A stretch of DNA of 64,000 nucleotides from Desulfobacula sp. (GTDB lineage: Bacteria; Desulfobacterota; Desulfobacteria; Desulfobacterales; Desulfobacteraceae). The position numbers were made by a program, and so were the translations under genes. Numbering within the stretch: the stretch's first letter is position 1; every line of letters begins with the position of its first letter. The DNA lies in assembly GCF_030145145.1 (NCBI RefSeq), contig NZ_JAQYWD010000023.1:1-64000 (forward strand), written 5' to 3'. A model generated the notes under the pieces. The model was not told the DNA's origin and made no database searches. It was given only the letters and a program-made list of their open reading frames with translations. Below are positions 19,424 through 59,254 of this stretch, piece by piece.

Positions 19424-19430
19424 GACTTGA

Positions 19431-32446: not shown

Positions 32447-32461
32447 GTCCCCTTCCTGCTG

Positions 32462-34387: not shown

Positions 34388-34400
34388 AATCCCGCATACC

Positions 34401-36166: not shown

Positions 36167-36183
36167 TCAACATGCTTCTCTTT

Positions 36184-36711: not shown

Positions 36712-36738
36712 ATTATACTATTCTCCTCACATTCAAAT

Positions 36739-38199
36739 TTACAGGACAATTTTCAAATTAAACGTCACGCGTTTGTCCTTTTTATCCATTGAAGCCGAAT
36801 GTATATCAACTTCTTTAAAAAGTGCAATATTTTTAAAATGATTTTTCATTTTATCAATGGTGTTAAATTGTGCCGCACTCCCGGTCACGATCAAATTATT
36901 CTCGGCCCGGACAAATCTTGAAAAAACAATATCAAGGGATGGGGGTAATGAGTTACTGATCTCATTTAACACATCAATACACAGCGGATAGCCATCAAAC
37001 ACCGCCAGATTTTTCTTTTCAGTTAATGCCGCCACTTTCAGCTGCATTTGATGCACCGGATCCACAATGGTCGTCACATCCGGAAAACAGGATTTAAAGA
37101 CGCGAACAATCCGGGTGTCCAATTGTTCTATTTGTCTTTCCATCCGGTTCATCTGTACCATGGGGTTAAGGGTCCATGCCAGGAAAAGAAAAAAAGACAA
37201 GACCGCTGACACGAGTATGCTGGATTTATTTTCCTGATAAAATAAGGCAAGGTCTGATACCTGCCGGCTGAAATTAAATGTTTCAACACCCTTTATCTCA
37301 TTAACGCCCATGGCAATGGCATTCCAAATGACATCGGGAGGGTCCTCGGAAACGGATTCAGGTATTGGCAGGCGCTGCGCCCCTATTAACATATCAAACA
37401 CACGCACCGGCATTGCCAGTTCTTTTTCCGTCTCAGCCACCAGCGTCGGCAGAAAAGAAACCGTTCCGGATAGGACAATCTCTTTTAGTTCCAAAGGATT
37501 GGTGAACATTTCATTGACGGATAAGACCGTATGAATCAAATTTTTTGTTATTGACGGGACCGGATGATCCGCATCAAATGACACGGTCCTGGTAAAAACA
37601 AGCTCACCCCATCTCACCGCATAAACGGATGCCAGTAATGGCTCCACATGGGCAAAAAGACAAAAAGCATCCGGGTCTGCGGTCCCGGCATAAACGAGAG
37701 CGGACCCATAACCGCTCCCCGCTGTAATCACATCCGGATGAACACCGCACTCGGAAAAAATCGTCTTGAATTGTTCCAGATGACCGGTCTGTATGCTGGC
37801 AACCCCTGCCATGGTGGTTTCAAACGCGTCTTTTGAGTTTTTCGGCAGCAGACAAAAATCGGATATCACGTCTTCAACCGGCCAGGGAAGATACCGTTCC
37901 AGCTCAAGAGAAAGAATCTGACTGATTTTTTTTCTATTTTTAAATGGCAGATCCAGGGTCCTGAAAAAAAAACAAGACAAAGGAAGGCTGATAACACATC
38001 GATCATACCCCTGCCCCAGTTTCTCCAGCAGCGGGATGAGGGTCTTTTTCACTGCCTGAAAAGGGACGTCCGCTTCAGCCATTTCAACCATCGGGCTGCA
38101 AGCAGTTTCAACAATACGGATCCCCTTAAGCCCCTGGCTTAATATAGCCGATGAAATCTGATCCTGCTGAATATCAATTGTTAATACGCTAGTGCTCAT
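36739..38199 (-). CDS. gspL: Type II secretion protein GspL (PilM-like cytoplasmic domain)
   Basis: About 486 aa from the ATG at 38199 (GGA eight bases upstream). A GTG at 38253 would place residues of no known kind before MSTSVLTIDIQQDQI, where the actin-like ASKHA domain of GspL/PilM begins. Conserved parts: LDLPFKNRKKISQILSLELE and LPWPVEDVISDF (about 80-115). One membrane helix near 325-345 (SSILVSAVLSFFLFLAWTL), then a periplasmic ferredoxin-like domain (about 365-486). GspL recruits the GspE ATPase to the membrane. It is the first gene of the operon and has a good promoter. Confidence 0.9.
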   Translation of the reverse strand: MSTSVLTIDIQQDQISSAILSQGLKGIRIVETACSPMVEMAEADVPFQAVKKTLIPLLEKLGQGYDRCVISLPLSCFFFRTLDLPFKNRKKISQILSLELERYLPWPVEDVISDFCLLPKNSKDAFETTMAGVASIQTGHLEQFKTIFSECGVHPDVITAGSGYGSALVYAGTADPDAFCLFAHVEPLLASVYAVRWGELVFTRTVSFDADHPVPSITKNLIHTVLSVNEMFTNPLELKEIVLSGTVSFLPTLVAETEKELAMPVRVFDMLIGAQRLPIPESVSEDPPDVIWNAIAMGVNEIKGVETFNFSRQVSDLALFYQENKSSILVSAVLSFFLFLAWTLNPMVQMNRMERQIEQLDTRIVRVFKSCFPDVTTIVDPVHQMQLKVAALTEKKNLAVFDGYPLCIDVLNEISNSLPPSLDIVFSRFVRAENNLIVTGSAAQFNTIDKMKNHFKNIALFKEVDIHSASMDKKDKRVTFNLKIVL

Positions 38200-38238
38200 A
38201 TGCTTTTCCACAAAAGAGGCAAAAGAAAACAAGACAAA

Positions 38239-38267
38239 TTTATATCCTCTCACGTGCTTTTATGCAA
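38239..38267 (-). promoter_or_regulatory. Sigma70-type promoter of the T2SS operon
   Basis: Minus strand: TTGCAT (38267-38262), 17-bp spacer, TATAAA (38244-38239), ending about 40 bp before the gspL ATG at 38199. Both hexamers are close to consensus. No other comparable promoter is seen within the L-M-N-C-D-E-yidD-TPR run, whose gaps are all short or overlapping. Confidence 0.75.
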
Positions 38268-42264: not shown

Positions 42265-42309
42265 ACAAAAATTATAGCAATCTCGATGGATAAAAACCGG
42301 GGGGAAAGT

Positions 42310-45300
42310 ATGATGGATATGCGCTGGAATAAATTTTTAGCTAACCTGACGGCTATTGTAGTAGCCATTCTGTTACTTCCCATGGCAGCATATGGACTGC
42401 CGGGAGACTTGAATGGTTCAGGACGGGTGGACGGATTTGACCTGATTCTGTTCGGACGGGCAAATGGGTCCGTTGCCACGGATACCGCCTGGAATCCGGA
42501 TGCAGACATGAACCAGGACAGGACCGTGGACCATAAGGACCTGGATATCCTGTCCGCCCATTTCGGGAAAAACGGCATCTCCTTTGGCCTTTGGGTGGGC
42601 GCTGAATACGACACGGAACGGGTATTCAAACTGTCAGCCACCGGAAACCGCCTGCAGCACATCGACGGGTTTAATGATCCGGTTTCCATTGCCGGCGATA
42701 TCCAAGATAACACGGTTTGGGTGGCTGATTCAGCGGATGATCAGGTGACAAAGCTGTCCGGGTTTGATGGCACACAACTCCTTTCTGTAAGCGGTATGGA
42801 TCCGTATTCAATTGCCACAGATCCCCGGGATGGTTCGGTCTGGATAGCGGATTATGCCAACAACCGGGTGGTCAAATTGCTGCCCTCGGTGACAGACGGC
42901 TATGCCGTGGGAACCGATACCGGGAGCCATATCGTGATCAGTGGATTCAGCAGTCCCCGGTGGGTGTCCGTCAATTCAGACCGCGGCGAGGTCTGGGTGG
43001 CAGATACAGGACATCATACAGTGGTCCGGTTATCCCCGGACGTCCCGGATGGGTATGACATCCAAACGGATATTGGCCATCATTCCACCAAAACCGGTTT
43101 CAATTCTCCCTATTGCGTGTCGGTGAACAGCGCGGATGGCACCGCATGGGTTGCGGATTATGGCAACAACCAGGTGGTAAAATTGTCTGCCACGGCCACG
43201 ACGGAAATCGTTCGGGTCAGCGGGTTCAATCAGCCCCGATCCCTGGATACCAGTACCACAGACGGTTCTGTCTGGGTAGCCGATTATAACAATGACCAGG
43301 TGGTCCGGCTTTCAGCGGACGGGTCTCTGATTTGCCGGGTGGGCGGATTTATTGATCCCTATGCCGTGGGGGTCAATCCCCTGGACGGATCCGCCTGGGT
43401 GGCGGATTACAGCAACAACCAGATTGTCAATCTTACTCCCAACGGAACGGAACGGATGCGGATCAGTGGGATCACCCGGCCCATGACCATCTCTGTTATT
43501 TCAGATGAGGTATCAAGCAACCGGTATCCCGGGGCAACAACAGCCCTCAATGTAACAACCGCTGCCGCCGGAGAGGCCATCACCTTCACCGGAACGGGAA
43601 AGGACCCCGACGGTTCAATTACACGGTATGAATGGGATTTTGACGGGGACGGCAACACAGACTTCAGCTCATCCACAACGGGTGTGACAACCCATACCTA
43701 CACGGCCGAAGGAATTTATAATCCTGTATTCAGGGTGACAGACAATGACTGGCTCACGGCAACGGATTATTCCCAGATTGTCCGGATCGGGGCACTAAAG
43801 GCGGTTGCCCAATCCGATGTTACCGTGGGGAATGCCCCTTTGGAAGTGAGTTTTACCGGCCAATTTATTGATCCTGTTGATGGGTTTGTGGACAGTTTTC
43901 AATGGGATTTTGACGGCGATAATATCTATGATTATTTTTCAGAAACCACTCCTGATACCACCTACACCTACATTGAACCCGGCCATTATGTTGCAACGCT
44001 TAAGGTGACGGACGGTTCCTATACAGCAACAGATCAGATCGCAATTAACGTGGACGTCTCTTTGCCGGTGGCCACAGTCAGCGCATCACCACAAGCAGGT
44101 GTCTCTCCTTTGATGGTTACTTTTTCCGGCTCGGGAACAGACCCGGACGGTGTTGTTATGTTGTATGAATGGGATTTTGAAGATGACGGCATCTATGACT
44201 GGTTTTCCATATCCAGCCCTGACACCTCTTTTGTTTACGGCAGTGACGGATCCTACACGGCCCGGCTCAGGGTAACGGATAATGATGGCCTCACGGGTAC
44301 GACCACGGCTTCCATTGACGTTGGAACCGCAGTGGTTTCCCTGACAGGGGTTGCCAATGCAGACAAAACATCCGGACGGGCACCATTTACCGTGAATTTC
44401 AACGCAATGGGCAGTTCCACAGAAAATATCACCACATATGAATGGCATTTCGGGGACTGTTCCTTATTTTCAGACAGCATGGACAGTGTATCCGACAAGT
44501 GGCAGGCCGATAGCCCCTGGGGACTTGTCACCTCTGATTTTCACAGTAAAGATACCGCCTGGACCGACAGTCCGGGGGGGGCATATGCCGAGAATGCAGA
44601 CCAGTCGTTAACAACCATTGCCTTGGATCTATCCGCCGTATCCACGGCAGCCCTGAGTTTCTGGCACCGGTATGAGACCGAGCGATATTATGATTACTGC
44701 AGGGTTGAAATCTCCGTTGATGGGGGAAATAACTGGAACCAGCTCACCTATTTTTATGGTACCCAGGCCCAGTGGACCGAAGTGACCACCGATATCAGTT
44801 CGTATCTGCCCAACCCTGATGTCCGGATCCGGTTCCGGCTGACATCCAATGGCAGCACAAATTATGATGGCTGGTATATTGATGATGTCAGGATATGTTC
44901 TGCAGAGGTTGACTGGAAGGAAACTGATGATGGCGCCATCAGCCATACCTATCTTCAATCCGGTCAGTTTACGGCCACACTCCGGGTAACCGATAATGAT
45001 GACAATCAAACAACAGATACGGTAAATATCAGCATTGACCCGGCCACTTTTCCGGAGGCCACCGCAGATGTCACCCCTAAAACAGGTGAAACCCCTCTAA
45101 GCGTTGCCTTTACAGCAACCGCATCAGACGCGGACGGGACCATTGAAACCTTTCACTGGAACTTTGGGGAGGAATATGTCTGGGTAGCAGATTATTCGAA
45201 TGATCAGGTGGTGCGGGTCTGCCAGGATGGCGCCTGCGAAATGGCCAGGGTCGACGGGTTTAATAATCCGTATTCAATATCGATTAATCCGCTTGATGGA

Positions 45301-48300
45301 ACGGTCTGGATTGCAGACTATTACCATCATGAGGTGGTCAGGCTCTCTGCCGACGGGCACACAGAACTGGTTCGGGTTGGCGGATTCTATTATCCGAGAT
45401 GCGTATCGGTTAATCCGTCTGACGGAACCGTCTGGGTGGCCGATTCTTCCCACAACCAGGTGGTTAAGCTATCCCCGGACGGAACAGAACTGTCCCGGAC
45501 AGGCGGATTTTCCACTCCCTATGGCGTATCGGTCAACCCCACTGATGGCAGCGTCTGGGTAGCGGATTATGGCAATCATCAGGTGGTTCAGCTGGCCCCG
45601 GACGGGACCGGACTGGTTAGAATCAGCGGGTTTTCCTCCCCCATCTCTTTGGATGTCAATCGTGCAGACGGAACGGTCTGGGTAGCCAATACCGGGAGCG
45701 ATACCGTGACGCGTCTGAACGCCGGGATTAGGGATGGGTACCATATTGGCCAGGATACGGGAAGCCATCTGGTAATTGAAGGGTTCAGCGACCCTTACAG
45801 CATTGCGGTAAATCCAACGGACAATACGGCTTGGGTGGCAGATTATTACCATAACCAGGTGGTCAAACTGGCCTCGGACGGGTCGGAAGTGCTGCGGCTG
45901 AACGGATTTTCTTATCCCACCGGTGTGGCAGTGAATGCCGGCAACGGTATGGTTTGGGTAGCAGATTACAGTCACAATCAGATCGTCAAACTATCCCCGG
46001 CGGGTAAAGAACTGGCCAGGTTAGACGGATTCAGCCTCCCCAGAGCTGTTGCTGTCAGGGATACCGGGTCTCAAAACACCTACACCTCTTCCACCAGTGG
46101 TAATACCACTCACACCTATACCATGCCGGGTATCTATCATACGGTATTTACGGCAACAGATAATGATGACCATGCGATCAGCCGATCCATGGACATTTCT
46201 GTTTTCAGTTCCCCGGACGTGGTGGCAGGCTCAAATATCATCAGCGGTCCTGCCCCGCTTGAGGTGTTTTTGACAGCCATGGTAACGGAATTGAGCGGAA
46301 CCATCACCCAGTATGAATGGGATTTTGATGGAGACGGCACCTATGATGCCATTTCAGACATCAGTCCCAACGCCCTTCATGTTTTCCAGACAGCAGGAAC
46401 CTATACGGCAACCGTTCGGGTAAGCACGGACCTTGGGCATAGCAATACCGATTCTGTCACGATTACGGTCACCCAAACCCCTCCCCAGGCATATGCATCT
46501 GCCGTGCCTGCACAGGGAAATGCCCCCCTTGCCGTGACATTTAACGGATCCGGAATGGATCCGGACGGCACCATTGCCACATATGAATGGGATTTCGACA
46601 ATGACGGCACATTTGACTTCACGTCAACAGACACGGGAGAGACCACCCACACCTACACCACGGCAAACACTTATACGGCAGCCCTGCGGGTGACCGACAA
46701 TGATGGATTGACCGCTATCCACCAGGTAACGGTCCGGGTAAAGGCGGCTACAGATCCTTCAGCACTTATCTATAGCCCCGACAGCCAAGGATTTTCACCC
46801 CATGGGGCCCGATTTTATGTCCATGGCATGGATCCGGACGGCACCATTGCCACCTATGAAATCGATTTTGATGGAGACGGTACGTTTGAGACCATTTCAC
46901 CGACTGCCTTCGGTGATACCATGGAAAACGGCGCCGCTTACTGGACGCCGGGCGGGTCATGGGCCAGGGTGGCAACCCAGGCACATTCTTTGTCCTATTG
47001 CTGGACAGACAGCCCGGATGGAGAGTATCCGGACAGCACAGATACGTCCCTGACCTCTTCCACCATAGACCTTTCATCCGCCACTGCGCCACGACTGATT
47101 TTCTGGCATAAATACAATTTTAAATATGGCGATTATGGCCAGGTTGAAATCTCCGGTAATGATGGTGCAACATGGAGTCAACTCAAATCTTTTTCAAATG
47201 CAACCCTGACCCAATGGACACAGGAGGAACTGGACCTGTCCGCCTATGCCGGAAATGCCACGGTTAAACTGCGGTTCCGGTTGACCAGCAATACCGCCGA
47301 TACAGCGGATGGCTGGTATATTGACGATGTATGGGCCGGGGATTTTATTGACCATACCTATACGGCCCATGGGGATTACACCGTGGCCCTTCGCGTGACG
47401 GATGATGCGGGAAATGCCACTGTCACAACCCAGACCGTATCCATTGTGGCCGGTGAAAATACAACCAATGTCTGGGTCGCGGATTATGCCAACAACCGGG
47501 TAGTCAAACTTTCAGACATGGGAGATATTCTGGCCACCGTGAATGGATTTAACCGCCCCCGGGTGGTTGAAGCAAATCCTATGACCGGAAATGTCTGGGT
47601 GTCTGATACGACCAATGACCGGGTGGTGAAATTATCAAAGGATGTGCCGGACGGATACAATGTGGCAGTGTCCTATGCCGCCGATGGCACTGCCAACAGC
47701 AACCGGGGAGTCCTATATGGAAATACAAGCGTTTCCGAAACCGGGCAGTTGAACAAGGGTTTTTATTTTGACGGCAGCGGTGATTATGTACAGATCCCGG
47801 ATGCCCCGATTTACCGGATGGCCTCGTGGACCCTTGAAGCATGGATCCAGCCGGATAACCTGAGCGGCAACCGGACCATTATCGGAAAAGTCAGCCAGGG
47901 CAAGGATTTTGCTCTGATGATGACCGGCGACAAAATCAGTGTACTGGCATATGACGGGGGCAGGCAGTTCCTGGCAACAACAGACCCGGTGACCATGGGA
48001 CAATGGTATCATGTGGCCGCCAGCTATGATGGAACCGCCGGGATGCTTCGACTCTATGTGGATGGGGCGTTTATTGCAGAAAAAGCCGTAACACCGGACA
48101 CCTCAAATACAGATCCCCTGATGATCGGCAGATCAAATTGCTGCAGCGAATATTTTTTCGGAACCATTGATGATGTCCGGGTCTGGAATGTGGCCCGGAC
48201 ACAAGCCCAGATTTCAGCGGGTCGTCAAAGTGAACTCACCGGCAGTGAAACCGGTCTTGTGGGGTATTGGAAACTGGATACCATTGAGTTGCCCCATCAT

Positions 48301-51300
48301 CAAATCGTTACCGGGTTTAATGATCCCTGGGGACTGTCCGTAAATACGGCTGACAACAGCGTCTGGGTGGCGGATCGAACCCATCACCAGGTGGTCAAAC
48401 TGGATTCAAACGGAACCGAAATAAAGCGAATCAATGGATTTTACAACCCGTCCGATATTGTGGTGAATTCAGGGGACGGTACGGTTTGGGTATCTGATAC
48501 GTCTAACGACAGAATCGTAAAACTTTTGTCGGATGTGCCCAATGGATTTGTGGCCTCTGCGTCGGGGATTACGCCGGACAGCACCTCAAACCAGAATATG
48601 GGGATGCTCATAGGAGATATTTCTCCGGATACCGGAACCCTTTCCGGCAGCCTGTGGTTTGACGGCAGCAGTGATTATGTCGTGATCCCACCCGATTCCG
48701 CCCTGGATGTCCAGAATTTTACCCTGGAAGCATGGGTGAAAGGCAGTTATGTAACGGACAGATGCCTGTTCATGCGGGGGAATGCATCCGGAGGGAATGA
48801 ACTCTATTTCGGTTTTGAAAATGCCACAACCCTCCAGGCCATACTGGATAATGGTAATTCCGTATACTACAGCGGTGACATTGATTTTACAGACGGAGAA
48901 TGGCACCACGTGGCCCTGGTGTATGACACCACCCAACTGCTATGCTTTGTGGATGGGGCCGCTTATGGCGATCCTGCGGCAATGGCCGTCACCCTGGATT
49001 TTGGCAACAGCCAGGCCCTTATCGGGGCTGATTTTGACGGATTTAACAGTTATCCGGGCAATTACTACAAAGGCCATATCGATGATGTCCGTCTATGGAA
49101 TGTGGCCCGCACCCCGGCACAGATTATGGCCGGCAAAGATGCCGAGATCAGCAGCAGTTCCCCGGGACTTGCGGGATACTGGATGTTGAATTCAGTGTCG
49201 GATTCCTATTCTCAAATCATCACCGGCTTTAATGACCCCTATGGTCTATCCCTTGATCTGTCAGACAATGGGGTCTGGGTGGCAGACTACTACAACAACC
49301 AGGTGGTGAAACTGGCGGCCGACGGATCTGAACTGTATCGAAAAAGCGGTTATAACCGTCCTTACAGCCTGTCTTTGAATCCCAGTGACCAGATGGTATG
49401 GGTGGCTGATCATGAAAACGACCGCGTGGTGAAACTGCGGCCCGATGGGGTAGAAACCGCCTGGGTCCAAGGACTTGACAACCCCCATGACGTGGCCGTA
49501 AATTCAGACGATGCCACGGTATGGGTGGCTGACTATCTCCACGATCAAGTGGTCAAACTAGCCCCTGACGGAACAGAACTCCTGCGGATTGGTGGATTTA
49601 ATGATCCGCTGTCCGTTTCCCTGGACACGGCTAAACGGAACCAGGTTCAACCCCCCATGGCAATGATAACTGCAACCCCCACAAGCGGGTCTGTTCCCCT
49701 GGCGGTGACCTTTACCGGAAGCGGCAGTGATAACGGCAGTATTGCCCAGTATGCGTGGGACTTTGACGGGGACGGCATCTATGACGACACCTCTGCCACC
49801 ACCGGCAATACGACCCATACGTATACCCTGCCGAACAATTACACTCCCATGTTCCGGGTGACCGATAATACCGGTCTGATGACCTATGCAACCCCCGGCA
49901 GCATTTATGCCGGCCCGGTGACGGTTTTTCCATCTGCCGCTCCCCAATCCGGGGAAGCCCCTTTGACGGTAACCCTGGGAGGTCATGTCCGGGGTCTTGC
50001 CGAAGATATCAGCATTACAACCTATGAATGGGATTACGATGGCGACGGCGTGTTTGATTACAGCAGCCAGGCAACTGCCGGCAGCAGTTATACCTATTCT
50101 CCCGGCGGCACCTACACTGCCATCCTCAGGGTGACGGACACGCTGGGAAACCAGGCCTATGCCAGCATACCCATACAGGTAGCACAGCAGGCCCCCACCG
50201 TCTCCAATTTAGCCACCCCCACGACGGGGAAAGCGCCCCTCAGCGTATCCCTCAACGGCAGTGGCAGCGACCAGGACGGGTCCCTGATCCGGTATGAATG
50301 GGATTATGATGGAGATGGCACCTATGACTGGTTTTCAACCGCCACTGGCGTCACATATTTTACCTATAAAACAGCAGGAACCTACGATGCGGTTATCCGG
50401 GTGACCGATAATGATGGCTTAACCGCCACAGCCACCCGAACCATAACGGTGGAGGAAACTCAAAATCCACCCATGGCAACTGCATCCGCCTCTATTTCCA
50501 AAGGATCTGTCCCATTGACGGTAACACTTACCGGTACCGGCATAGATGTTGACGGGCAAATTCAATTGTATGAATGGGATTTTGAGGGGGATGGCACCTA
50601 TGATTACAGTTCCGCCGATACCGGGAATACGTCTCATACCTATGCGCTTCCCGGTCCTTTCCATCCCCTGTTCCGGGTGACGGATGCCGACGGCCTGACA
50701 GCCACGGCAGACCTGTTAATTACAGCCCAGGAAGCCGGTGCTCCCATTGCCATGGCCAATGCCACCCCGAAAACCGGTGCCACCCCATTAACCGTCAACT
50801 TTGATGCCATTGGGTCATCTGATCCGGACGGGAACATCGTTCGGTATGACTGGTCATTTGGCAGTGATGTGGCCTGGGTGGCAGATTATTATAATCACAC
50901 GGTACACCGGTTGAATGGATATCAGACACAAACCCTTGTGGAAGGATTTAACAACCCCTACCGGTTGTCCATGAACCCGGATGGCACCGTATGGCTCAGC
51001 GATCACAGCAATAATCAGATCGTTAAACTCAGTGCGAATGGAAAGGAAGAACTCTCCAGGACCGATGGATTTAACCGGCCCTATGGCGTGTCAACTGACC
51101 CGGCAGACGGAAGTGTCTGGGTAGCCGATTACTACAACAACCAGGTGGTTAAACTGGATACCAACGGCACTGAAACCCTTCGGATTGATGGGTTTTATTA
51201 TCCCACTTCTGTGGCGGTATCTTTGGATGACAGCAGTGTCTGGGTGTCCGATTATTATCATAATCAGGTGGTCAAACTGGATTCGGATGGCAACCAATTG

Positions 51301-54276
51301 GCCCGGATAGATGGGTTTAACCGGCCTTTCTGGGTATCGGTAAATCAGGAGGATGGATCTGCCTGGATCGCAGACCGGTATAACAACCGAGTGGTAAAAC
51401 TGGCCGCCGATACACCGTCCGGCTACAACACATCCGTACAATCCGTTACCCCGGAGGCTCGGTCCGGTTTATCTGCCATGCTGTTCGGGAATACGGTCGC
51501 CGATACGGGTAACCTTTCCGGTGCAATGACCATGGATGGCAGCGGTGACTATGTACTGATACCGGAAAATGCGTTCCCGGATATGGACAGCTTTACCGTT
51601 GAAGCATGGGTCAAATCCACCTCCGTCAATGGTCGTACCATTTTCATGAGAGGCAATGGATCGGGTGAAAATGAACTGTATTTTGGTTTTTATAACAATT
51701 CAACCATTGAAGCCATTGTGGATAATGGGTCCACGAAACAATTCAGCGGTTCCCTTAATTTTGCCGATGGGAACTGGCATCATGTGGCCCTCACTTATGA
51801 TGCAGCAAATGAGACCTTGAGCTGCTATGCAGACGGGGTATCCTATGGTTCACCCGCCGTGTCGGTTCCAGCCGATATAAAATTTGAAGGTTCCCACGCC
51901 CTTATCGGGGCTGACTTTGACAGCTTTAACGGCTCCCTGGGAAATTATTTTATCGGTCAGATTGATGACGTACGGGTTTGGAATAAACCCCGCACGATGA
52001 TTGAACTGGCAGATCATAAAGAGAGTGAACTCACTGGTTCAGAAGTCGGACTGGTGGGCTACTGGAAGTTAAATAGTGTTCAAGACACCCCGTATCATCA
52101 ACTGCTCACCGGATTTTATGAACCCGTTCACATTGCCATCAGTCCTATGGATGGCAGTGCCTGGGTATGTGATTACAATAATGATCAAATGGTCAGGATA
52201 TCTTCAGACTGCACCCGTGAGATCGTTCGGGTTGACGGGTTCAACCAGCCCCATGAGGCAGTGGTCAGTGCTGCTGACGGCACGGTATGGGTGGCGGATT
52301 ACTACAATAATCAACTCGTTGTCATCACCGATACGGGAAAAGAACTCCGCCGCATCAGCGGATTTAACCGACCCACATCGGTTGTGCTCGCACCGCGGTC
52401 TGGAAATCTGGTCAGCCTGACAGCAGATCAGATGGTTCCCTATGTTTATCCGCAAATCGGTGAGTATATGGCCTCACTGACCGTTACGGACAATGATGGC
52501 AACACTGATACAGATACGGTTATCATTAATGCAGGCACCTATCCTGAAGCCATTGCCATTGCCTATCCCACCTCCGGAACAGCCCCTTTAACGGTGCGCT
52601 TTGCCGCAAACGGGAACAGTCCCAGTGGGACCATAGAATATTTTAGATGGGATTTTGACGGGAACGGGTCAACGGACTGGGAAACCCGGATCAGTGAGAA
52701 TAAAGAATATACCTTCAACCAGCCGGGAATCTATCCGGCAACCCTTACGGTTACAGACAATAGAGGGTTTAGCGATATCAAACAGGTCACCATTACGGTT
52801 CAGATATCGGATGATGCCCCGGTGGTTTCAGTCCTTGCAGATCCAACAGAGGGGAATGCGCCATTAGACGTTACCCTCACCGGGCTTGCAAAAGATTCTG
52901 ATGGCACCATTGTCAACCATGAATGGGATTTTGACGGGGACGGCACCTATGATTATACCTCGACGATCTCCGGCATCACTTCCCACCAATACACCGATAC
53001 AGGGGTGTATACGGCCACACTGAGAGTGACGGACAATGACGGCAACCAGGGAACAGGGACATCCCGGATTGAAGTCAAAGCCGAGGGTGCGCCCACGGCA
53101 AAAGCCGAAGCATCTGTCACCCATGGCGCTGCAGCACTGGGCGTTCAATTCACCGGCACGGGTTCCCCGGGGGATACCATTGTAACCTACGAATGGGATT
53201 TTGACGGAGACGGCACCTATGACGTCAGTTCCACTGATACGGGGAATGCCGGATATGTTTACACCCTTCCCGGATCATTCACTGCCGTTCTCCGAGTGAC
53301 GAATGATGCCGGTCTGACAGATACAGCGTCGGTGAATATTCTTGTCACCGCCGGGATCACGGCTTACCTGGGTCAGGAGAGTTTCGATCCCTCGGTGGGT
53401 GAAACCATTGATATCAACTCGGTTCTCACTGCCACAGCAACGGTAACGGTTCTGGTAACCGATCGGACAGGAAACACGATCAAAACATTGGTAAAAGATG
53501 CGTCCCGGGCACCGGGATACTATTCCGACACCTGGGATGGTAAGAATGAGGCCGGTCAGGTCCTGGCATCCGGCGCCTATCTGTACGTAATAGAATATGA
53601 AACCGGCGGTCAGACCTACCGATATGATCTGACCAATACCATCAGCCCGGATATTGCCAAGATAACCCCAACCTATCCGACCACGTTTAATCCCCTGAAT
53701 GCCGAGACCAATTTTTTCCGGTATGAACTGGAGACCAAATCCGAGGTGACCGTGTATATTTCTCCGTTCAGAGGCGGGGCCATGGATCGTATCAAAACCC
53801 TTGTGCTGAGACAGCCGCAAAAGGCGGGTAATTATGTATTAACATGGGATGGAACCGATGATTCCGGTAATCTGGTAGCATCAGAAAGCTACGTGCTGGC
53901 GGTTTTCAGATGGTATCTGCCTGAAAATGCCATTATCATCAATAACCGGCCGATGATATCAGATCCCCTGGTCAATCCGGCCTATTTTAATCCGGATGCC
54001 CTTCCCTACAGTGATGAGAATCAAACCATCATGTCTTATACCCTTTCAAAGCAGGCAGACGTCTCCTTAACCATCTATGACGGGTTGAACTATATTGTCA
54101 AACAGATAACAACGAAAGATGTGTCAGCCGGCCCGGGCAATATCATTACATGGGATGGTAAAAACACCCAGGGGAAAAATGTGACTCCCGGGGTGTATCG
54201 TACTAAATTGATTGCAACAGATGCGAACGGTAACAAGTCTTATGATGCCAATGCGCTGTTAATTATTTTTTATTAA
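42310..54276 (+). CDS. Giant secreted multidomain protein: dockerin, propellers, PKD, LamG, FlgD-Ig
   Basis: About 3988 aa from the ATG at 42310, chosen for its Shine-Dalgarno (an ATG at 42286 has none). Signal peptide about 1-29. An N-terminal type I dockerin follows (31-88) with loops DLNGSGRVDGFD and DMNQDRTVDHKD. Four arrays of seven NHL-like blades (motif VWVADYYNNQVVKL) lie at about 95-397, 956-1249, 1721-2444 and 2853-3367. Sixteen PKD-type domains (YEWDFDGDG) are present; four are split by an insert after the W-x-F strand: two by immune-inhibitor-A/MAM-like domains (about 716-872, 1532-1676) and two by whole propellers. LamG-like domains sit inside propeller loops (about 1777-1997, 2076-2302, 3037-3259). 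Three FlgD-Ig-like repeats end the protein (about 3684-3988). Probably an extracellular calcium-binding adhesin or matrix protein. Internal repeats make misassembly possible. Confidence 0.88.
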   Translation: MMDMRWNKFLANLTAIVVAILLLPMAAYGLPGDLNGSGRVDGFDLILFGRANGSVATDTAWNPDADMNQDRTVDHKDLDILSAHFGKNGISFGLWVGAEYDTERVFKLSATGNRLQHIDGFNDPVSIAGDIQDNTVWVADSADDQVTKLSGFDGTQLLSVSGMDPYSIATDPRDGSVWIADYANNRVVKLLPSVTDGYAVGTDTGSHIVISGFSSPRWVSVNSDRGEVWVADTGHHTVVRLSPDVPDGYDIQTDIGHHSTKTGFNSPYCVSVNSADGTAWVADYGNNQVVKLSATATTEIVRVSGFNQPRSLDTSTTDGSVWVADYNNDQVVRLSADGSLICRVGGFIDPYAVGVNPLDGSAWVADYSNNQIVNLTPNGTERMRISGITRPMTISVISDEVSSNRYPGATTALNVTTAAAGEAITFTGTGKDPDGSITRYEWDFDGDGNTDFSSSTTGVTTHTYTAEGIYNPVFRVTDNDWLTATDYSQIVRIGALKAVAQSDVTVGNAPLEVSFTGQFIDPVDGFVDSFQWDFDGDNIYDYFSETTPDTTYTYIEPGHYVATLKVTDGSYTATDQIAINVDVSLPVATVSASPQAGVSPLMVTFSGSGTDPDGVVMLYEWDFEDDGIYDWFSISSPDTSFVYGSDGSYTARLRVTDNDGLTGTTTASIDVGTAVVSLTGVANADKTSGRAPFTVNFNAMGSSTENITTYEWHFGDCSLFSDSMDSVSDKWQADSPWGLVTSDFHSKDTAWTDSPGGAYAENADQSLTTIALDLSAVSTAALSFWHRYETERYYDYCRVEISVDGGNNWNQLTYFYGTQAQWTEVTTDISSYLPNPDVRIRFRLTSNGSTNYDGWYIDDVRICSAEVDWKETDDGAISHTYLQSGQFTATLRVTDNDDNQTTDTVNISIDPATFPEATADVTPKTGETPLSVAFTATASDADGTIETFHWNFGEEYVWVADYSNDQVVRVCQDGACEMARVDGFNNPYSISINPLDGTVWIADYYHHEVVRLSADGHTELVRVGGFYYPRCVSVNPSDGTVWVADSSHNQVVKLSPDGTELSRTGGFSTPYGVSVNPTDGSVWVADYGNHQVVQLAPDGTGLVRISGFSSPISLDVNRADGTVWVANTGSDTVTRLNAGIRDGYHIGQDTGSHLVIEGFSDPYSIAVNPTDNTAWVADYYHNQVVKLASDGSEVLRLNGFSYPTGVAVNAGNGMVWVADYSHNQIVKLSPAGKELARLDGFSLPRAVAVRDTGSQNTYTSSTSGNTTHTYTMPGIYHTVFTATDNDDHAISRSMDISVFSSPDVVAGSNIISGPAPLEVFLTAMVTELSGTITQYEWDFDGDGTYDAISDISPNALHVFQTAGTYTATVRVSTDLGHSNTDSVTITVTQTPPQAYASAVPAQGNAPLAVTFNGSGMDPDGTIATYEWDFDNDGTFDFTSTDTGETTHTYTTANTYTAALRVTDNDGLTAIHQVTVRVKAATDPSALIYSPDSQGFSPHGARFYVHGMDPDGTIATYEIDFDGDGTFETISPTAFGDTMENGAAYWTPGGSWARVATQAHSLSYCWTDSPDGEYPDSTDTSLTSSTIDLSSATAPRLIFWHKYNFKYGDYGQVEISGNDGATWSQLKSFSNATLTQWTQEELDLSAYAGNATVKLRFRLTSNTADTADGWYIDDVWAGDFIDHTYTAHGDYTVALRVTDDAGNATVTTQTVSIVAGENTTNVWVADYANNRVVKLSDMGDILATVNGFNRPRVVEANPMTGNVWVSDTTNDRVVKLSKDVPDGYNVAVSYAADGTANSNRGVLYGNTSVSETGQLNKGFYFDGSGDYVQIPDAPIYRMASWTLEAWIQPDNLSGNRTIIGKVSQGKDFALMMTGDKISVLAYDGGRQFLATTDPVTMGQWYHVAASYDGTAGMLRLYVDGAFIAEKAVTPDTSNTDPLMIGRSNCCSEYFFGTIDDVRVWNVARTQAQISAGRQSELTGSETGLVGYWKLDTIELPHHQIVTGFNDPWGLSVNTADNSVWVADRTHHQVVKLDSNGTEIKRINGFYNPSDIVVNSGDGTVWVSDTSNDRIVKLLSDVPNGFVASASGITPDSTSNQNMGMLIGDISPDTGTLSGSLWFDGSSDYVVIPPDSALDVQNFTLEAWVKGSYVTDRCLFMRGNASGGNELYFGFENATTLQAILDNGNSVYYSGDIDFTDGEWHHVALVYDTTQLLCFVDGAAYGDPAAMAVTLDFGNSQALIGADFDGFNSYPGNYYKGHIDDVRLWNVARTPAQIMAGKDAEISSSSPGLAGYWMLNSVSDSYSQIITGFNDPYGLSLDLSDNGVWVADYYNNQVVKLAADGSELYRKSGYNRPYSLSLNPSDQMVWVADHENDRVVKLRPDGVETAWVQGLDNPHDVAVNSDDATVWVADYLHDQVVKLAPDGTELLRIGGFNDPLSVSLDTAKRNQVQPPMAMITATPTSGSVPLAVTFTGSGSDNGSIAQYAWDFDGDGIYDDTSATTGNTTHTYTLPNNYTPMFRVTDNTGLMTYATPGSIYAGPVTVFPSAAPQSGEAPLTVTLGGHVRGLAEDISITTYEWDYDGDGVFDYSSQATAGSSYTYSPGGTYTAILRVTDTLGNQAYASIPIQVAQQAPTVSNLATPTTGKAPLSVSLNGSGSDQDGSLIRYEWDYDGDGTYDWFSTATGVTYFTYKTAGTYDAVIRVTDNDGLTATATRTITVEETQNPPMATASASISKGSVPLTVTLTGTGIDVDGQIQLYEWDFEGDGTYDYSSADTGNTSHTYALPGPFHPLFRVTDADGLTATADLLITAQEAGAPIAMANATPKTGATPLTVNFDAIGSSDPDGNIVRYDWSFGSDVAWVADYYNHTVHRLNGYQTQTLVEGFNNPYRLSMNPDGTVWLSDHSNNQIVKLSANGKEELSRTDGFNRPYGVSTDPADGSVWVADYYNNQVVKLDTNGTETLRIDGFYYPTSVAVSLDDSSVWVSDYYHNQVVKLDSDGNQLARIDGFNRPFWVSVNQEDGSAWIADRYNNRVVKLAADTPSGYNTSVQSVTPEARSGLSAMLFGNTVADTGNLSGAMTMDGSGDYVLIPENAFPDMDSFTVEAWVKSTSVNGRTIFMRGNGSGENELYFGFYNNSTIEAIVDNGSTKQFSGSLNFADGNWHHVALTYDAANETLSCYADGVSYGSPAVSVPADIKFEGSHALIGADFDSFNGSLGNYFIGQIDDVRVWNKPRTMIELADHKESELTGSEVGLVGYWKLNSVQDTPYHQLLTGFYEPVHIAISPMDGSAWVCDYNNDQMVRISSDCTREIVRVDGFNQPHEAVVSAADGTVWVADYYNNQLVVITDTGKELRRISGFNRPTSVVLAPRSGNLVSLTADQMVPYVYPQIGEYMASLTVTDNDGNTDTDTVIINAGTYPEAIAIAYPTSGTAPLTVRFAANGNSPSGTIEYFRWDFDGNGSTDWETRISENKEYTFNQPGIYPATLTVTDNRGFSDIKQVTITVQISDDAPVVSVLADPTEGNAPLDVTLTGLAKDSDGTIVNHEWDFDGDGTYDYTSTISGITSHQYTDTGVYTATLRVTDNDGNQGTGTSRIEVKAEGAPTAKAEASVTHGAAALGVQFTGTGSPGDTIVTYEWDFDGDGTYDVSSTDTGNAGYVYTLPGSFTAVLRVTNDAGLTDTASVNILVTAGITAYLGQESFDPSVGETIDINSVLTATATVTVLVTDRTGNTIKTLVKDASRAPGYYSDTWDGKNEAGQVLASGAYLYVIEYETGGQTYRYDLTNTISPDIAKITPTYPTTFNPLNAETNFFRYELETKSEVTVYISPFRGGAMDRIKTLVLRQPQKAGNYVLTWDGTDDSGNLVASESYVLAVFRWYLPENAIIINNRPMISDPLVNPAYFNPDALPYSDENQTIMSYTLSKQADVSLTIYDGLNYIVKQITTKDVSAGPGNIITWDGKNTQGKNVTPGVYRTKLIATDANGNKSYDANALLIIFY

Positions 54277-54289: not shown

Positions 54290-57200
54290 ATGCAACTTAT
54301 CCGGAACATCCTATTCAAGAGAAAAACGGTTTTACCCGTTGTCTTAATTTTGCTGGCATTGATGTATTGTTTCAAACCCGGCCATGCGTTAGCGTTTGAC
54401 AAGGATTGGGATGCCGGTCACACCACCACCGATGTCGAAGATCCTGATCCCACAGACCTGCCGGACGATGATACCGGCGGAGATGGGGATGATGATGACG
54501 GGGATGATGAAGATGACGGGGATGACGGGGATGACGACGAGGATGATGATGAAGACCCCGAAGAACCGGATGAGGATGAAGACGAGGATGACGAGGAAGA
54601 TAAGGATGATGATTGTAAAGAGGATTGTAATAATGAATGCAAGCCGGATGCCAAAAAATCTCCGGTCTATGTCAAGTCCGGCAACCTTGAACTGAAATAT
54701 ACCGATTTCGAAATTGCCGGGATCGGTCCTGCGTTAGGGGTTGTGCGGTCTTACAACAGCCATGACAAGTACAACGGGCCCTTTGGCCATGGATGGGCCT
54801 TTAACCTGATCGTGCGCCTCATCCGGGTGTCGGATCACAATAATGATTATATTATTATCCGCAAGCCTTCGGGCAAACGGCTTAAGTTCATTAAAACTAT
54901 GGATGGCACCTATTTCCCGACAGCCGCAAGCGTAACAGACACCCTTGTTGAAAATCAGGACGGGTCGTTTACATTAAATTGTAAAACCTGTTCCAGAACC
55001 TATCTCAGGCCAACCTATCATTTCAATATCCAGGGCAACCTGGCGTATATGTCGGATAATCAGGATAACCGGATCAATTTCACCTATGACACATCGGGCA
55101 GACTGATCTCTGCGTCCAGCAGCGTCACCAAGCGGAGCCTGACCATTGCCTATGGCGAAAATGATAAAATTTCCCAGATTACCAATTCCCTGGGCCGATC
55201 ATGGCGGTATGCCTATGATGCACAGGATAATCTGATAACGGTTACCGATCCACTCAACTATTCCCTGAATTATGAATACAGCCCCAAGCACAAGCTGCTG
55301 TCGGTCACGGATAAAAACGGCAATCAAAGTCCGGTGATTACCTATGATGAAAAATCCCGGGTAAAGACCTATGGCCGGGGCAAGGAGATTTATACCTACG
55401 CATATTTTTCAGGGTACACCACCAAAACAGATCCCCTGGGGAATGTGTTCACGTTTTATTATGATCAGAACGGAAACGTCATTAAAACCATCCTCCCGGA
55501 CGGATCTGAGGTTCTGGCCTATATTGATGCAAATGTTCACCCCACCAAACGGGTGGATGCCAATGGCAATGAATGGCAGTATACCTACAATGAATCCGGC
55601 CAGATCCTCACAGAGACCGATCCTTTAGGACATACCACCACCTATACCTATGATCCGGAATTCCAGAAAATAAAAACAAAGACAGACCCCCGGGGGGCCA
55701 AATGGACCTATACCTACGATACGGACGGGAATCTGATCAAAGTGGTTGATCCCCTCCTGTGTGAAACCCTTTTTACCCGTAACGCCAGGGGGCAGGTACT
55801 CACAAAAACCGATGGGGCGGGCAATACATTTACCTATGCCTATGACGCGGCCGGCAATTTAATCCAGGTCACAGATCCCCTGGGGAATGTGGAAACCTCA
55901 AGTTATGACGGCCTGGGCCGACTGATAAGCGAAACCGATGCCCGGGGGAATACACGGACCTATACCTACGATATCCTGGGCAGATTAACCGATGCCAAAG
56001 ACCCGGCCGGAAACCACCGGTACCTCACCTATGATGGAAACGGCAATAAAACCAGTGTAACGGATGAAAACGGAAATACCACCACCTATGGATATGACAT
56101 CTCCAACCGGATGATCACAAAAACCGACGCCCTGGGAAACCTGACATCCTATGTCTATGACGTGGCAGGCCACCTGAATTTTGTGACAGATGCCCGGGGC
56201 AATACAACAGGCAAAACCCGTGATAAGCGGTATAACATCACGTCTGAAACAGATCAGGACGGCAATGTCACCACCTACACCTATGATGCCTCCGGGAATC
56301 GGCTCACCAAAACCGATGCCCGGGGCAATACCTGGACCTATACCTATGATGCCATGGATCGCCTGCTGACGGAAACAGATCCCCTTGATAGCATTACTGC
56401 ATATGAATATGATGAAACCGGAAACAAGGTAAAGATCATTGACCCGGAAGGCAAAATCACCTATTTCACCTATAACCTGGTGGGAAGCCTGACCCGGTCC
56501 CTGGTTAAAATCGGCGACACCCTGCCCGAACCGGATGCCGATGATATTGTCACCACCTATACCTACGACTGCCTGGGAAGAAAACTAGCCGAAACCAATG
56601 CGTTAGGCCAGACCACGACCTGGACATATGATTTCGCAGGACATATCCTCACGGAAACCAATAGCCTGGGGGAGGTAAAGGCCTATACCTATGACGCAAA
56701 CGGCAACAAGCTGACCTATACCACCATATCCGGAAACGTCCTCGCCTTCACCTATGACACATTAAACCGGATGATCACGGCCGGTGATACAACCGGGCTG
56801 TTCGAGTCCTATACGTATGACGGGGTTGGCAACAAAATAAAAACCCTGAAAGCCAATGGGGATGTCACGTCAACCACGTTTACCGCCTTCAACAAGCCCG
56901 CTAAAATCACGGATGCCCTGGGCAATGAGGCCCGCTATACCTATGATAAAAACTACAACCTCATCCGGGTGGAAGACCGCTTGGGAAAGGTAACCGTCAA
57001 TACCTATGACAAGCTGAACCGACTGAACAAGGTAACGGATGCCCTGGGCAACATGTCTCTTTTAGCCTTTGACAAAGTTGGAAACATGGTGAAGATGACC
57101 GATGCAAAGGGCAATGAAACCGTTTATGCCTATGATACGGCAAACCGCATGGTGTCGGTAACATATGCGGATGGTACATCCAAAGCCGTTGCCTATAGTG

Positions 57201-59254
57201 CCGCGGGGAAAATTATCCAAAAGACCGATCAGAATGGTACCGTCATCACCTATGGCAGAGACGACCTGTACCGAATCACCCAGAGAGGGTATCCGGATAC
57301 GTCATCCAACACCTATACCTATGACAAACTGGGCCGGATGAAAACAGCCACCAATGCATATGGCACCGTCTCTTTTACCTATGATGCTGCCGGACGTATT
57401 ACCGTCATTGACCAGAACGGCACCCAGGTCACCTATGTCCATGACGTTTCCAAGCGAACCCGGACCCTTAATTATCCATCGGGCAAACAATTTGTTGAAA
57501 CCTATACCCTGAGAGATAAAATTCATAAAATTGACAATGCCGTTAATTCAACCAATGTGGTGACCTATACCTATGATGCCTTGAGCAGATCGTTAACCAA
57601 GACCCTTGGCAATGGGGTGGTAACAGGCTACACCTACAGCAAAAACAGCCGGATCACGGGAATATCCTATACCGACGATAATGGGGTGAATCTCCTGGGG
57701 TTTCAATACACCTATGACAAAAACGGAAATCGATTGAGCAGCCGGAATACGGCCCATTCAGATCGATCCGAACAATATGACTATGATGATATTCAGAGAC
57801 TGACAAGCTTCAAGCAGGGCCAGGCAGACGCATCCAACCTGATACCAGCGCCGCAGTTTACATCTGAATATGAACTGGATCCCCTTGGTAACTTTCTCAC
57901 GGTGACCCGGGACGGTACCGCACAATCCCGTTCGGTCAATGCCATGAACCAGTATACCAGCGTCAAAAGTGTACCCCTTGTGTACGATGCCAACGGGAAC
58001 CTCGTTGATGATGGCCAGAAAATCTATCAATATGATTATGAAAACCAGCTGATAAAGATTACCCGCAAATCAGATTCAACCGTTATTGCCGCTTTCACCA
58101 TTGATGCCTTAAACAGACGGGTAAAAAAATCAGCCGGCGGAACCACAACCGAGTATATCTATGATGACAGCCGGATCATTGAAGAGCAGGTCAATAAGGC
58201 GACGATTGCCACGTATGTCTATGGCAACAAGCTGGATGAAGTCCTCCTGATGAACCGGGGGGGGACGGATGCCTATTTCCTCACCGATGTCATCGGTTCT
58301 GTCATGGCACTGACAGACAATGGCGGCAGTGTGACGGAAACCTACCAGTATGATGCCTATGGTCAGGTCACCTTTTTCAACGCCGGGGGGACTCAGGTCT
58401 TTGCCTCGGCCCGGGAGAACCCCTATCTTTTTACCGGCAGACGATATGATGCCGGGGCCCAGATCTATTATTACCGTGCCCGGTGTTATCACCCTGCCCT
58501 GGGACGGTTCCTGAATCCGGATCCCAAAGGCTTTATTGATGGCATGAATCTGTACGAATATGCCATGTCCAACCCCCTCCGGTATGTCGATCCCAGGGGA
58601 ACCGCTGTAAAAACCTGTGATTCCCATTCCTTTTCCTATGATGTGGACAACGTTAAAAAAATACTGCCAAAATTTCTGTCAAAATACATGAGCAGCGGCA
58701 GTGTCAGCGTTGCCTACCAGAAATGCAGGGAATGCTGCGGTGAAGGCACAAAAAATGGCGGGGAATATGCGGTCAGCAAGGAGTTAAGTGTTTCCGTCGG
58801 CTGGAGCGGGGATACCGGATACATTAATACGCCCTGGGGGATCTCCTGGGATATCGACTGGTATGCGTTTCAATCAAAGGGATTCCTGGGGCTTGTGGCA
58901 AAGGTTTCCTGGGGAATTTCCGGAAGTCTTGCCGGCGGATATGACGGGTGTGAAGAAAAGCGCTATGGTAAAGGATGTATCAAGGGGTCCATCACCCTGG
59001 AAGCCCTTTATGGTGTTGCGGATGAAAACAAAGAGTCTTCCTTGATCAAGGCGTATATATCCGGCGGCGTAACCGGATATGTCGACCTCTGCCTCAAAAT
59101 TCAAAGTATGAAGTCCTCCTTGTTTACGTTAGAAGCCAGCGCTGGACTTTCCGGTGCGATTAAGGGTACGGTGGGGGTATGGAAATTCACCTATGAACGA
59201 ACCTTCTATGAAGTGACGGGGTATGTCGGCCCATGGGTAATCTTTTCGCTATAA
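54290..59254 (+). CDS. Secreted RHS/YD-repeat protein with variable C-terminal domain
   Basis: A 1654-aa protein with signal peptide (about 1-35). An almost pure Asp/Glu segment (about 43-105) is followed by a four-Cys CKEDCNNECK. Next are a DUF6531-type start (YVKSGNLELKYTDFEI, RSYNSHDKYNGPFGHGWAFN) and a long YD-repeat shell (TYTYDAxGNL repeated, about 230-1350). The RHS core (PYLFTGRRYDAGAQIYYYRA, LGRFLNPDPKG) ends at YVDPRG near 1433. The remaining 215 residues are unlike the shell: Cys-rich (KCRECCGEG), then Gly-rich beta strands. In RHS proteins this position holds the variable effector. The signal peptide argues for T2SS or similar export, not VgrG loading. It lies 13 bp after the giant gene with a GGAG-type RBS. 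Confidence 0.88.
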   Translation: MQLIRNILFKRKTVLPVVLILLALMYCFKPGHALAFDKDWDAGHTTTDVEDPDPTDLPDDDTGGDGDDDDGDDEDDGDDGDDDEDDDEDPEEPDEDEDEDDEEDKDDDCKEDCNNECKPDAKKSPVYVKSGNLELKYTDFEIAGIGPALGVVRSYNSHDKYNGPFGHGWAFNLIVRLIRVSDHNNDYIIIRKPSGKRLKFIKTMDGTYFPTAASVTDTLVENQDGSFTLNCKTCSRTYLRPTYHFNIQGNLAYMSDNQDNRINFTYDTSGRLISASSSVTKRSLTIAYGENDKISQITNSLGRSWRYAYDAQDNLITVTDPLNYSLNYEYSPKHKLLSVTDKNGNQSPVITYDEKSRVKTYGRGKEIYTYAYFSGYTTKTDPLGNVFTFYYDQNGNVIKTILPDGSEVLAYIDANVHPTKRVDANGNEWQYTYNESGQILTETDPLGHTTTYTYDPEFQKIKTKTDPRGAKWTYTYDTDGNLIKVVDPLLCETLFTRNARGQVLTKTDGAGNTFTYAYDAAGNLIQVTDPLGNVETSSYDGLGRLISETDARGNTRTYTYDILGRLTDAKDPAGNHRYLTYDGNGNKTSVTDENGNTTTYGYDISNRMITKTDALGNLTSYVYDVAGHLNFVTDARGNTTGKTRDKRYNITSETDQDGNVTTYTYDASGNRLTKTDARGNTWTYTYDAMDRLLTETDPLDSITAYEYDETGNKVKIIDPEGKITYFTYNLVGSLTRSLVKIGDTLPEPDADDIVTTYTYDCLGRKLAETNALGQTTTWTYDFAGHILTETNSLGEVKAYTYDANGNKLTYTTISGNVLAFTYDTLNRMITAGDTTGLFESYTYDGVGNKIKTLKANGDVTSTTFTAFNKPAKITDALGNEARYTYDKNYNLIRVEDRLGKVTVNTYDKLNRLNKVTDALGNMSLLAFDKVGNMVKMTDAKGNETVYAYDTANRMVSVTYADGTSKAVAYSAAGKIIQKTDQNGTVITYGRDDLYRITQRGYPDTSSNTYTYDKLGRMKTATNAYGTVSFTYDAAGRITVIDQNGTQVTYVHDVSKRTRTLNYPSGKQFVETYTLRDKIHKIDNAVNSTNVVTYTYDALSRSLTKTLGNGVVTGYTYSKNSRITGISYTDDNGVNLLGFQYTYDKNGNRLSSRNTAHSDRSEQYDYDDIQRLTSFKQGQADASNLIPAPQFTSEYELDPLGNFLTVTRDGTAQSRSVNAMNQYTSVKSVPLVYDANGNLVDDGQKIYQYDYENQLIKITRKSDSTVIAAFTIDALNRRVKKSAGGTTTEYIYDDSRIIEEQVNKATIATYVYGNKLDEVLLMNRGGTDAYFLTDVIGSVMALTDNGGSVTETYQYDAYGQVTFFNAGGTQVFASARENPYLFTGRRYDAGAQIYYYRARCYHPALGRFLNPDPKGFIDGMNLYEYAMSNPLRYVDPRGTAVKTCDSHSFSYDVDNVKKILPKFLSKYMSSGSVSVAYQKCRECCGEGTKNGGEYAVSKELSVSVGWSGDTGYINTPWGISWDIDWYAFQSKGFLGLVAKVSWGISGSLAGGYDGCEEKRYGKGCIKGSITLEALYGVADENKESSLIKAYISGGVTGYVDLCLKIQSMKSSLFTLEASAGLSGAIKGTVGVWKFTYERTFYEVTGYVGPWVIFSL
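54440..54625. repeat. GAT/GAC-rich low-complexity coding tract
   Basis: A simple-sequence region of GAT, GAC and GAA codons encoding the Asp/Glu-rich segment after the RHS signal peptide. It is prone to in-frame slippage, and the acidic chain could bind calcium. Confidence 0.75.

Follow-up and report, generated by a model that had tools for sequence, protein, structure and literature searches.

Split PKD domains that appear to host MAM-like domains and NHL propellers in a giant protein of Desulfobacula

Results

The locus and its gene cluster

The window, i.e., the whole stretch of 64,000 nucleotides of Desulfobacula DNA that was analysed, contains a giant gene that forms a single open frame and encodes 3996 amino acids when counted from the first ATG. 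An earlier interpretation made from the letters alone (the sequence-only reading) had given the protein 3988 amino acids, a length that fits a start at the methionine of residue 9 but not one at the first ATG. The most hydrophobic 18-residue stretch of the protein comprises residues 17-34, and its N-terminus looks, judged by eye, like a Sec signal. Pfam profiles mark 19 stretches of PKD_4, 18 of NHL, three each of Laminin_G_3 and FlgD_ig, and two each of Reelin_subrepeat-B and InhA-like MAM, together with a dockerin match that lies below the curated cut-off (the same profile, Dockerin_1, gives 26.5 bits in a diverged relative, G453, which is over the cut-off). The features of the giant gene are listed below, the PKD domains being numbered P1 to P16 and the domains found between two PKD halves being called guests.

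42286..54276, plus strand: giant secreted-type protein, 3996 aa (open reading frame, Pfam domains)
42400..42561, plus strand: dockerin-like N-terminal loop pair, residues 39-92 (Pfam Dockerin_1 22.3 bits, cut-off 22.9)
42583..43518, plus strand: free NHL propeller I, seven blades, two empty long loops (blade profile)
43525..44322, plus strand: intact PKDs P1-P3 (PKD profile)
44338..44457, plus strand: P4 first half (profile positions 5-41)
44458..44904, plus strand: MAM/reelin-subrepeat-B-like guest 1, in P4 (Pfam; fold matches with Z 12.2 for reelin and Z 11.8 for meprin MAM)
44905..45036, plus strand: P4 second half (profile positions 44-87)
45052..45174, plus strand: P5 first half (profile positions 2-42)
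45175..46071, plus strand: NHL propeller II, guest in P5, seven blades, one empty long loop (blade profile)
46072..46197, plus strand: P5 second half, including what is left of the ordinary PKD loop (PKD profile, join test)
46213..46743, plus strand: intact PKDs P6-P7 (PKD profile)
46756..46905, plus strand: P8 first half (profile positions 2-51)
46906..47334, plus strand: MAM/reelin-like guest 2, in P8 (Pfam)
47335..47442, plus strand: P8 second half (PKD profile, join test)
47464..49641, plus strand: free NHL propeller III, seven blades, two LamG inserts (blades 2+2+3, split blades counted once)
47662..48291, plus strand: LamG A, within a blade of propeller III (Pfam, blade profile)
48556..49206, plus strand: LamG B, within a blade of propeller III (Pfam, blade profile)
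49654..50727, plus strand: intact PKDs P9-P12 (PKD profile)
50740..50865, plus strand: P13 first half (PKD profile)
50866..52401, plus strand: NHL propeller IV, guest in P13, seven blades, interrupted (blades 5+2; AF2 model matches 7bid)
51433..52089, plus strand: LamG C, guest of a guest, inside propeller IV (Pfam, blade profile)
52402..52530, plus strand: P13 second half (PKD profile, join test)
52540..53346, plus strand: intact PKDs P14-P16 (PKD profile)
53362..54273, plus strand: three FlgD Ig-like domains, conserved C-terminus (Pfam and conservation)

The following neighbouring genes bear on export and docking.

30734..38253, minus strand: three type II secretion-type genes, candidate exporter (GspE 30734-32446, GspD 32462-34408, GspL/PilM-like 36739-38253)
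54290..59254, plus strand: RHS-repeat protein gene, 26 RHS stretches and DUF6531, 13 bases downstream of the giant gene (Pfam)
59279..60328, plus strand: DUF3592 gene (Pfam)
60325..61227, plus strand: PD40 propeller gene (Pfam)
61256..62416, plus strand: FlgD Ig-like gene (Pfam)
62435..63184, plus strand: cohesin and sub-threshold dockerin gene, candidate docking partner, end of the cluster (Cohesin 32.4 bits, cut-off 24.1; Dockerin_1 20.5, cut-off 22.9)

All five downstream genes (RHS, DUF3592, PD40, FlgD_ig and cohesin) are present in the relative G073. The RHS protein is found at the same place in G497 as well, where the genes after it are alike by position and length only, and a third relative, L031, has the cohesin gene and a 1691-aa frame at the RHS position. 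Judging from these neighbours, the giant protein may be exported by the adjacent type II system and, if the domain names are a guide, attached through dockerin and cohesin. An ABC transporter (binding protein, permease and ATPase) lies upstream at 38375-41664, with frames of similar length upstream in G073 and G497; a link to the giant gene is possible and unexplained. Large proteins, perhaps further exported repeat proteins, are also encoded near the type II genes at 13640-22547, where 19431-22547 carries CarboxypepD_reg over the cut-off and 13640-17692 has sub-threshold Big_1 and Invasin_D3 matches.

Four PKD domains are split in the same loop

A profile derived from ten of the intact PKDs in the giant protein finds sixteen PKDs along its length, 12 intact and four split (P4, P5, P8 and P13), in agreement with the count in the sequence-only reading. 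All eight partial matches in the protein form four complementary pairs of halves, between which lie, respectively, a MAM-like domain, an NHL propeller, a second MAM-like domain and an NHL propeller that itself contains LamG. In each case the interruption of the host lies in the loop that joins the W-x-F strand to the H-T-Y strand, with break and resumption at 44457/44905 in P4, 45174/46072 in P5, 46905/47335 in P8 and 50865/52402 in P13. The four host ends quoted earlier (EWHFGD, HWNFGE, EIDFDGDGTF and DWSFGS) are present in the sequence, and the associated claim that all four hosts split at one point holds for the loop but not for the exact position: P4, P5 and P13 break directly after W-x-F, P8 about 8 residues deeper in the loop.

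When the guest is excised and the halves are joined, each host becomes a full-length PKD match covering approximately profile positions 1-87, with 67.3 bits for P4, 74.5 for P5, 60.0 for P8 and 68.3 for P13. As a control, the first half of each host was combined with 50 guest segments of equal length, the maxima being 31.9, 44.4, 39.7 and 43.6 bits, respectively (those of P8 and P13 obtained before boundary correction). Intact PKDs of the same protein score 89-137 bits (89.1 and 90.8 for the two that did not enter the profile), compared to 60-75 bits for the joined hosts, and the hosts are therefore more diverged than the intact domains. Altogether 19 breaks in this loop were recorded in six proteins (four each in the window protein, G073, G497 and G453, two in L031 and one in G698), and in 18 of them the joined score exceeds the best of the 50 guest segments; the nineteenth is P13 of the window protein with its second half clipped, which gives 35.1 bits, less than its control, and which reaches the 68.3 bits quoted above with corrected boundaries.

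The guests and the domains within them

Both MAM-like guests, which had been proposed earlier, score over the cut-off for Reelin_subrepeat-B and InhA-like_MAM (PF21471, PF20773) and below it for MAM (PF00629), and a fold search with the P4 guest finds the MAM domains of reelin and meprin at Z of about 12. Each of the four propellers has seven blades if blades split by LamG are counted once. The sequence-only reading was thus right that the two propeller inserts have seven blades each, but the second is not uninterrupted, as LamG C lies inside it; this is one of three LamG domains that the reading had missed, the other two being those of free propeller III. Laminin_G_3 (PF13385) reaches 285.2 bits over the three stretches against a cut-off of 27.6. 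Because LamG C lies inside propeller IV, P13 is three levels deep, PKD(NHL(LamG)). The G+C content of the guests (48-55%) lies within the range of the rest (48-56%).

LamG interrupts a propeller blade between positions 17 and 24 of the blade profile. There are 13 LamG domains in five proteins, and the blade profile detects both half-blades for 10 of these, the exceptions being LamG A and B of G073 and LamG B of G497. On their left side, LamG sites are often flanked by a sequence resembling V-P-D-G-Y-N, and extended blade loops that carry this motif and no LamG number at least 11 in four proteins (nine with D-G-Y, one with N-G-Y and one with D-A-Y). Three LamG-free long loops are found in the window protein, and at least one such loop in G073 is missed by the motif pattern. 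Since LamG-free long loops stand beside LamG-bearing ones, empty and filled loops of the acceptor type coexist. Further NHL-like repeats were observed in a 2340-aa open frame of a same-genus genome that ends at the contig ends (L059, G019:C96), and a further NHL-like stretch in the same genome as the window (L041, G000:C41:110-499).

Conservation and distribution

The same domain order is found in G073 (4054-aa frame) and G497 (4000-aa frame) and, from P7 on, in L031 (2599-aa frame, a Desulfobacterales metagenome assembly; G596, identical to it in frame length and contig coordinates, was counted with it as one record). Identity over the aligned P13 unit is 43% for L031 and 44% for G073, the best L031 segment having 41%. 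In a tree of the PKDs, starred clades unite the domains of nine of the 16 positions (P1, P2, P6, P8, P9, P10, P11, P13 and P14) and weaker ones those of P5 and P12; P3, P4, P7, P15 and P16 form none. A full-length match to residues 678-1719 was found in none of 22 same-genus genomes, and the P13 profile matched at least five of the 389 genomes of the order sample when the best three candidates per genome were scored. The distribution across genomes is patchy.

Shorter relatives, recognised by a profile of the C-terminus, occur in 15 of 389 genomes of the order and four of 385 of the phylum. Among the ten loci examined (G173 was left out), eight have one to three guest-free PKDs, G483 has none, and G698 holds a fragment of a gene like that of G453. 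We considered these shorter genes as empty versions of the giant gene and rejected the idea: judged by order, the host PKDs are apparently absent from them, and they therefore provide no empty orthologous slot. Elsewhere in the same genome as the window, two other proteins contain five distinct PKDs of near full length. At another locus, L008, nothing scored above 5 bits against the PKD profile of the giant protein, and the half match there appears by eye to be an ordinary PKD before an RHS region.

Exchange of guests

LamG domains and propellers differ in how they group across relatives. A single clade is rejected by the approximately unbiased (AU) test for both LamG A (p 3.6e-35) and LamG C (p 5.8e-5) and is not rejected for LamG B (p 0.16), for which a change of slot is accordingly not shown. 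LamG C of L031 is of the A type and LamG A of G073 is of the B/C type, as had been noticed in the sequences ahead of any tree, whereas propellers III and IV of the same two proteins group by their own positions, as do the propellers generally with the exception of G453's III. Since LamG does not group by slot and the propellers group by position, we conclude that LamG guests moved between slots and the propellers stayed.

The diverged relative G453 (3691-aa frame) has a different set of guests in the PKD loop, namely two MAM domains, one F5/8 domain (Pfam 44.2 bits, cut-off 28.2) and a 171-aa domain without a Pfam assignment (L057, residues 2805-2975; its best row, Cadherin-like, has 14.2 bits and is below the cut-off), which we take to have the look of a jelly roll. 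By gene order the 171-aa guest occupies the position of NHL(LamG), and the same holds in the G698 piece, from the same genus; the grouping of its host with P13 has an AU p of 0.31, and the orthology rests on gene order. A ConA-like guest (3keto-disac_hyd 42.5 bits, cut-off 26.8) is found at residues 1627-1800 of the same protein (L057) in a different PKD loop, a second acceptor that precedes the W-D-F strand; the uncontrolled joined score of its host is 54.0 bits, against 16.3 for the first half and 45.1 for the second. The tree of MAM guests is compatible with a single origin of m1 and with a single origin of m3 and does not settle the deeper order.

Discussion

A probable stalk with sideways guests

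The giant protein is probably an exported PKD stalk in which four split hosts close round binding-type guests that point sideways, with LamG plugged into propeller loops. In such an arrangement a long stalk of Ig-like PKDs would be exported and four of the PKDs would serve as hosts, the two halves of each flanking a complete binding-type domain that would point sideways while the host would still close. One level down, LamG would sit in an extended loop of a propeller blade, giving the PKD(NHL(LamG)) nesting. Propeller, LamG, MAM and F5/8 folds have both of their ends lying together. Guests with adjoining ends could be lost, gained or swapped with the stalk left intact. Surface location and sideways projection of the guests would fit this arrangement, and the domain names suggest that the guests may bind ligands and mediate adhesion to polymers or cells. 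PKD domains withstand force, as described in the accessible part of PMC2862302, which suits the role of a stalk.

A more far-reaching version, which we put forward tentatively and regard as rather less likely than not, would treat both the PKD loop and the long loop of the propellers as permanent acceptor sites in a plug-in scaffold of two tiers, in which recombination between slots would swap the displayed binding domains; the stalk would then be a diversifying, non-RTX display rack, assembled with a cohesin-bearing partner.

How the hosts arose

The origin of the split hosts is where the strongest alternative lies. A single PKD could have been split once, and the split host with its guest duplicated along the stalk, the guests being replaced later, so that the loop would not have been targeted repeatedly; we give this a chance just short of even. 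It is in line with the propeller tree, in which the PKD-hosted propellers II and IV are separated from the free propellers I and III by a branch with support 98/97, and with the AU tests, which reject neither one clade of the 18 split hosts tested (p 0.38) nor P5 with P13 (p 0.29) nor P4 with P8 (p 0.24). This failure to reject is, however, weak, because the power of trees from 86 columns is low, and the two break spots about 8 residues apart (P4, P5 and P13 versus P8), together with the other PKD loop occupied in G453, favour several insertions over a single one. The sequence-only reading had seen in the repeated use of one loop a modular way of building side-branching proteins. That idea is supported by the reuse of the loop, kept in other assemblies, and by the other guests in a relative; the independent splitting of the hosts, in contrast, does not follow, one split-host ancestor being compatible with the AU test.

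The arrangement might also be ordinary domain insertion without general significance, variable loops tolerating inserts and this gene merely being rich in them, a view to which we assign a minority chance, somewhat behind that of a single split. According to the available text of PMC13114784, 20% of multidomain proteins carry insertions and nesting to six levels is known. In keeping with this view, the MAM matches of our phylum sample outside the gene family stood beside no split PKD at the 24 loci with a readable frame. The PKD(MAM) profile matched at least 29 rows in 19 of the 395 phylum genomes when the best seven candidates per genome were scored, and four of these rows belong to the giant gene of the window and its G073 counterpart. 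From the remaining 25 rows, whose loci partly overlap, came 24 loci with MAM in a readable frame of at least 150 aa, and none of these had a PKD scoring at least 10 bits beside it (L090 had no frame of at least 150 aa bearing MAM); diverged hosts could be missed in this survey because the PKD profile is specific to the window. A search of other genomes for PKDs with inserts at this loop, as the earlier reading had proposed, thus succeeded in relatives but not beside the MAM matches of these 24 loci outside the gene family. Against ordinary insertion stands the size of the guests, which exceed their hosts 1.7- to 6-fold in length in all 18 measured cases (with boundaries set by us), whereas the inserts of the survey are smaller than their hosts in 77.0% of cases (PMC13114784, available part). 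Two tiers of acceptors and exchange between slots likewise exceed what a chance insert would give.

Do the halves form one domain?

It is quite improbable that the domains are simply beads in a row, the supposed halves being short linkers of beta type that form no common fold. Besides the lower scores of the hosts relative to intact PKDs, this view can draw on the modest confidence of AF2 in the host halves. The model of the P13 unit, made from an alignment of 8 rows, has a mean pLDDT of 76 and a pTM of 0.62, with ten-residue blocks at pLDDT 77-98 in the propeller, 23-87 in LamG (below 50 for approximately its first 40 residues) and 47-77 in the PKD halves; the mean pLDDT of the P4(MAM) model is 63. 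The models contain the strands of both PKD halves. The propeller IV model, the one propeller for which the ring was modelled, matches the designed seven-blade protein 7bid with Z 38.5 and an rmsd of 1.6 over 277 of 286 residues; since the alignment spans model residues 47-557, across LamG, the ring is predicted to be closed around the LamG insert. Propeller and MAM matches took up the results of the fold searches, leaving the hosts out of reach.

Against the row of beads speak the complementary pairing of all eight partial matches, the joined scores at the level of a whole PKD, and the match of both halves to one solved PKD. In the last comparison, positions 11-47 of the PKD(MAM) profile fall on residues 19-56 of the collagenase ColH PKD (4jgu) and positions 207-242 on residues 59-94, so that the two halves would come together as a single compact domain, the guest sitting at residues 56-59; among the 19 listed sequences of solved structures, none had its best stretch over the whole PKD(MAM) unit. 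Closure of the split hosts as one PKD domain is thus supported by the sequence comparisons, and we infer that the hosts close in this way in three dimensions. An assembly or frame artefact, for which the many diverged repeats of the gene (each copy sharing 60% identity or more with its reference) might be cited, is as good as ruled out by the one open frame and by the domain order repeated in the separate assemblies of the orthologues G073, G497 and L031.

What the arrangement would mean

If the preferred reading of a PKD stalk with sideways guests holds, it would carry the split-domain principle of adhesins past RTX proteins to PKD stalks and would provide a natural case of three-level nesting in which the guests are far larger than the hosts. 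With empty and filled loops available, and with guests that differ among relatives, what a domain requires in order to accept a guest would become directly testable, and the protein could serve as a natural template for the design of branched proteins. It would also be a warning that annotators may label such hosts as broken fragments.

Comparison with known systems

The archaeal surface-layer protein 1l0q, which is among the fold matches of the P13 model, likewise combines PKD with a (YVTN) propeller in one surface protein, but by its entry title the two are in tandem, not one within the other. The ColH PKD is of the same domain type as the hosts, and both halves match it as one domain; it is, however, uninterrupted, with two residues between the stretches that flank a guest in the giant protein. 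Immune inhibitor A and the MAM domains of reelin and meprin (4yu5, 3a7q, 4gwm) belong with the MAM guests both in fold and in sequence family. In the literature searched, which covered few subscription papers, we found no PKD hosts of this kind. An ECOD survey of 48,263 insertion pairs describes A1-B-A2 and nested A1-B1-C-B2-A2 architectures that resemble those of the giant protein (PMC13114784, in the parts available), from which the giant protein differs in having guests larger than their hosts; the words PKD and propeller are absent from the main text of that paper.

The closest parallel is offered by RTX adhesins such as AhLap of Aeromonas hydrophila and FrhA of Vibrio cholerae, in which, according to the accessible portions of PMC12077191 and PMC10865825, split Ig-like domains project ligand-binding domains and, in AhLap, insertion is recursive (an RTX roll containing vWFA, which in turn contains an insert). 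Discontinuous Ig-like stalk domains, a ligand-binding domain emerging from them and guest ends on one side are the points of likeness, and the giant protein shares with these adhesins, at the level of sequence, the principle of a complete guest emerging from a split Ig-like host. It differs in its PKD-type hosts, in the MAM, NHL propeller, LamG and F5/8 guests found all along the stalk in its family, and in its conserved FlgD Ig-like C-terminus. The RTX motif GGxGxD occurs nowhere in the window protein and once in G497, and the giant protein is not filed as an RTX adhesin because RTX repeats are absent. Projection from split Ig-like domains is a principle already described for RTX adhesins, and the giant protein represents a variant of that principle outside the RTX proteins, with PKDs as its hosts.
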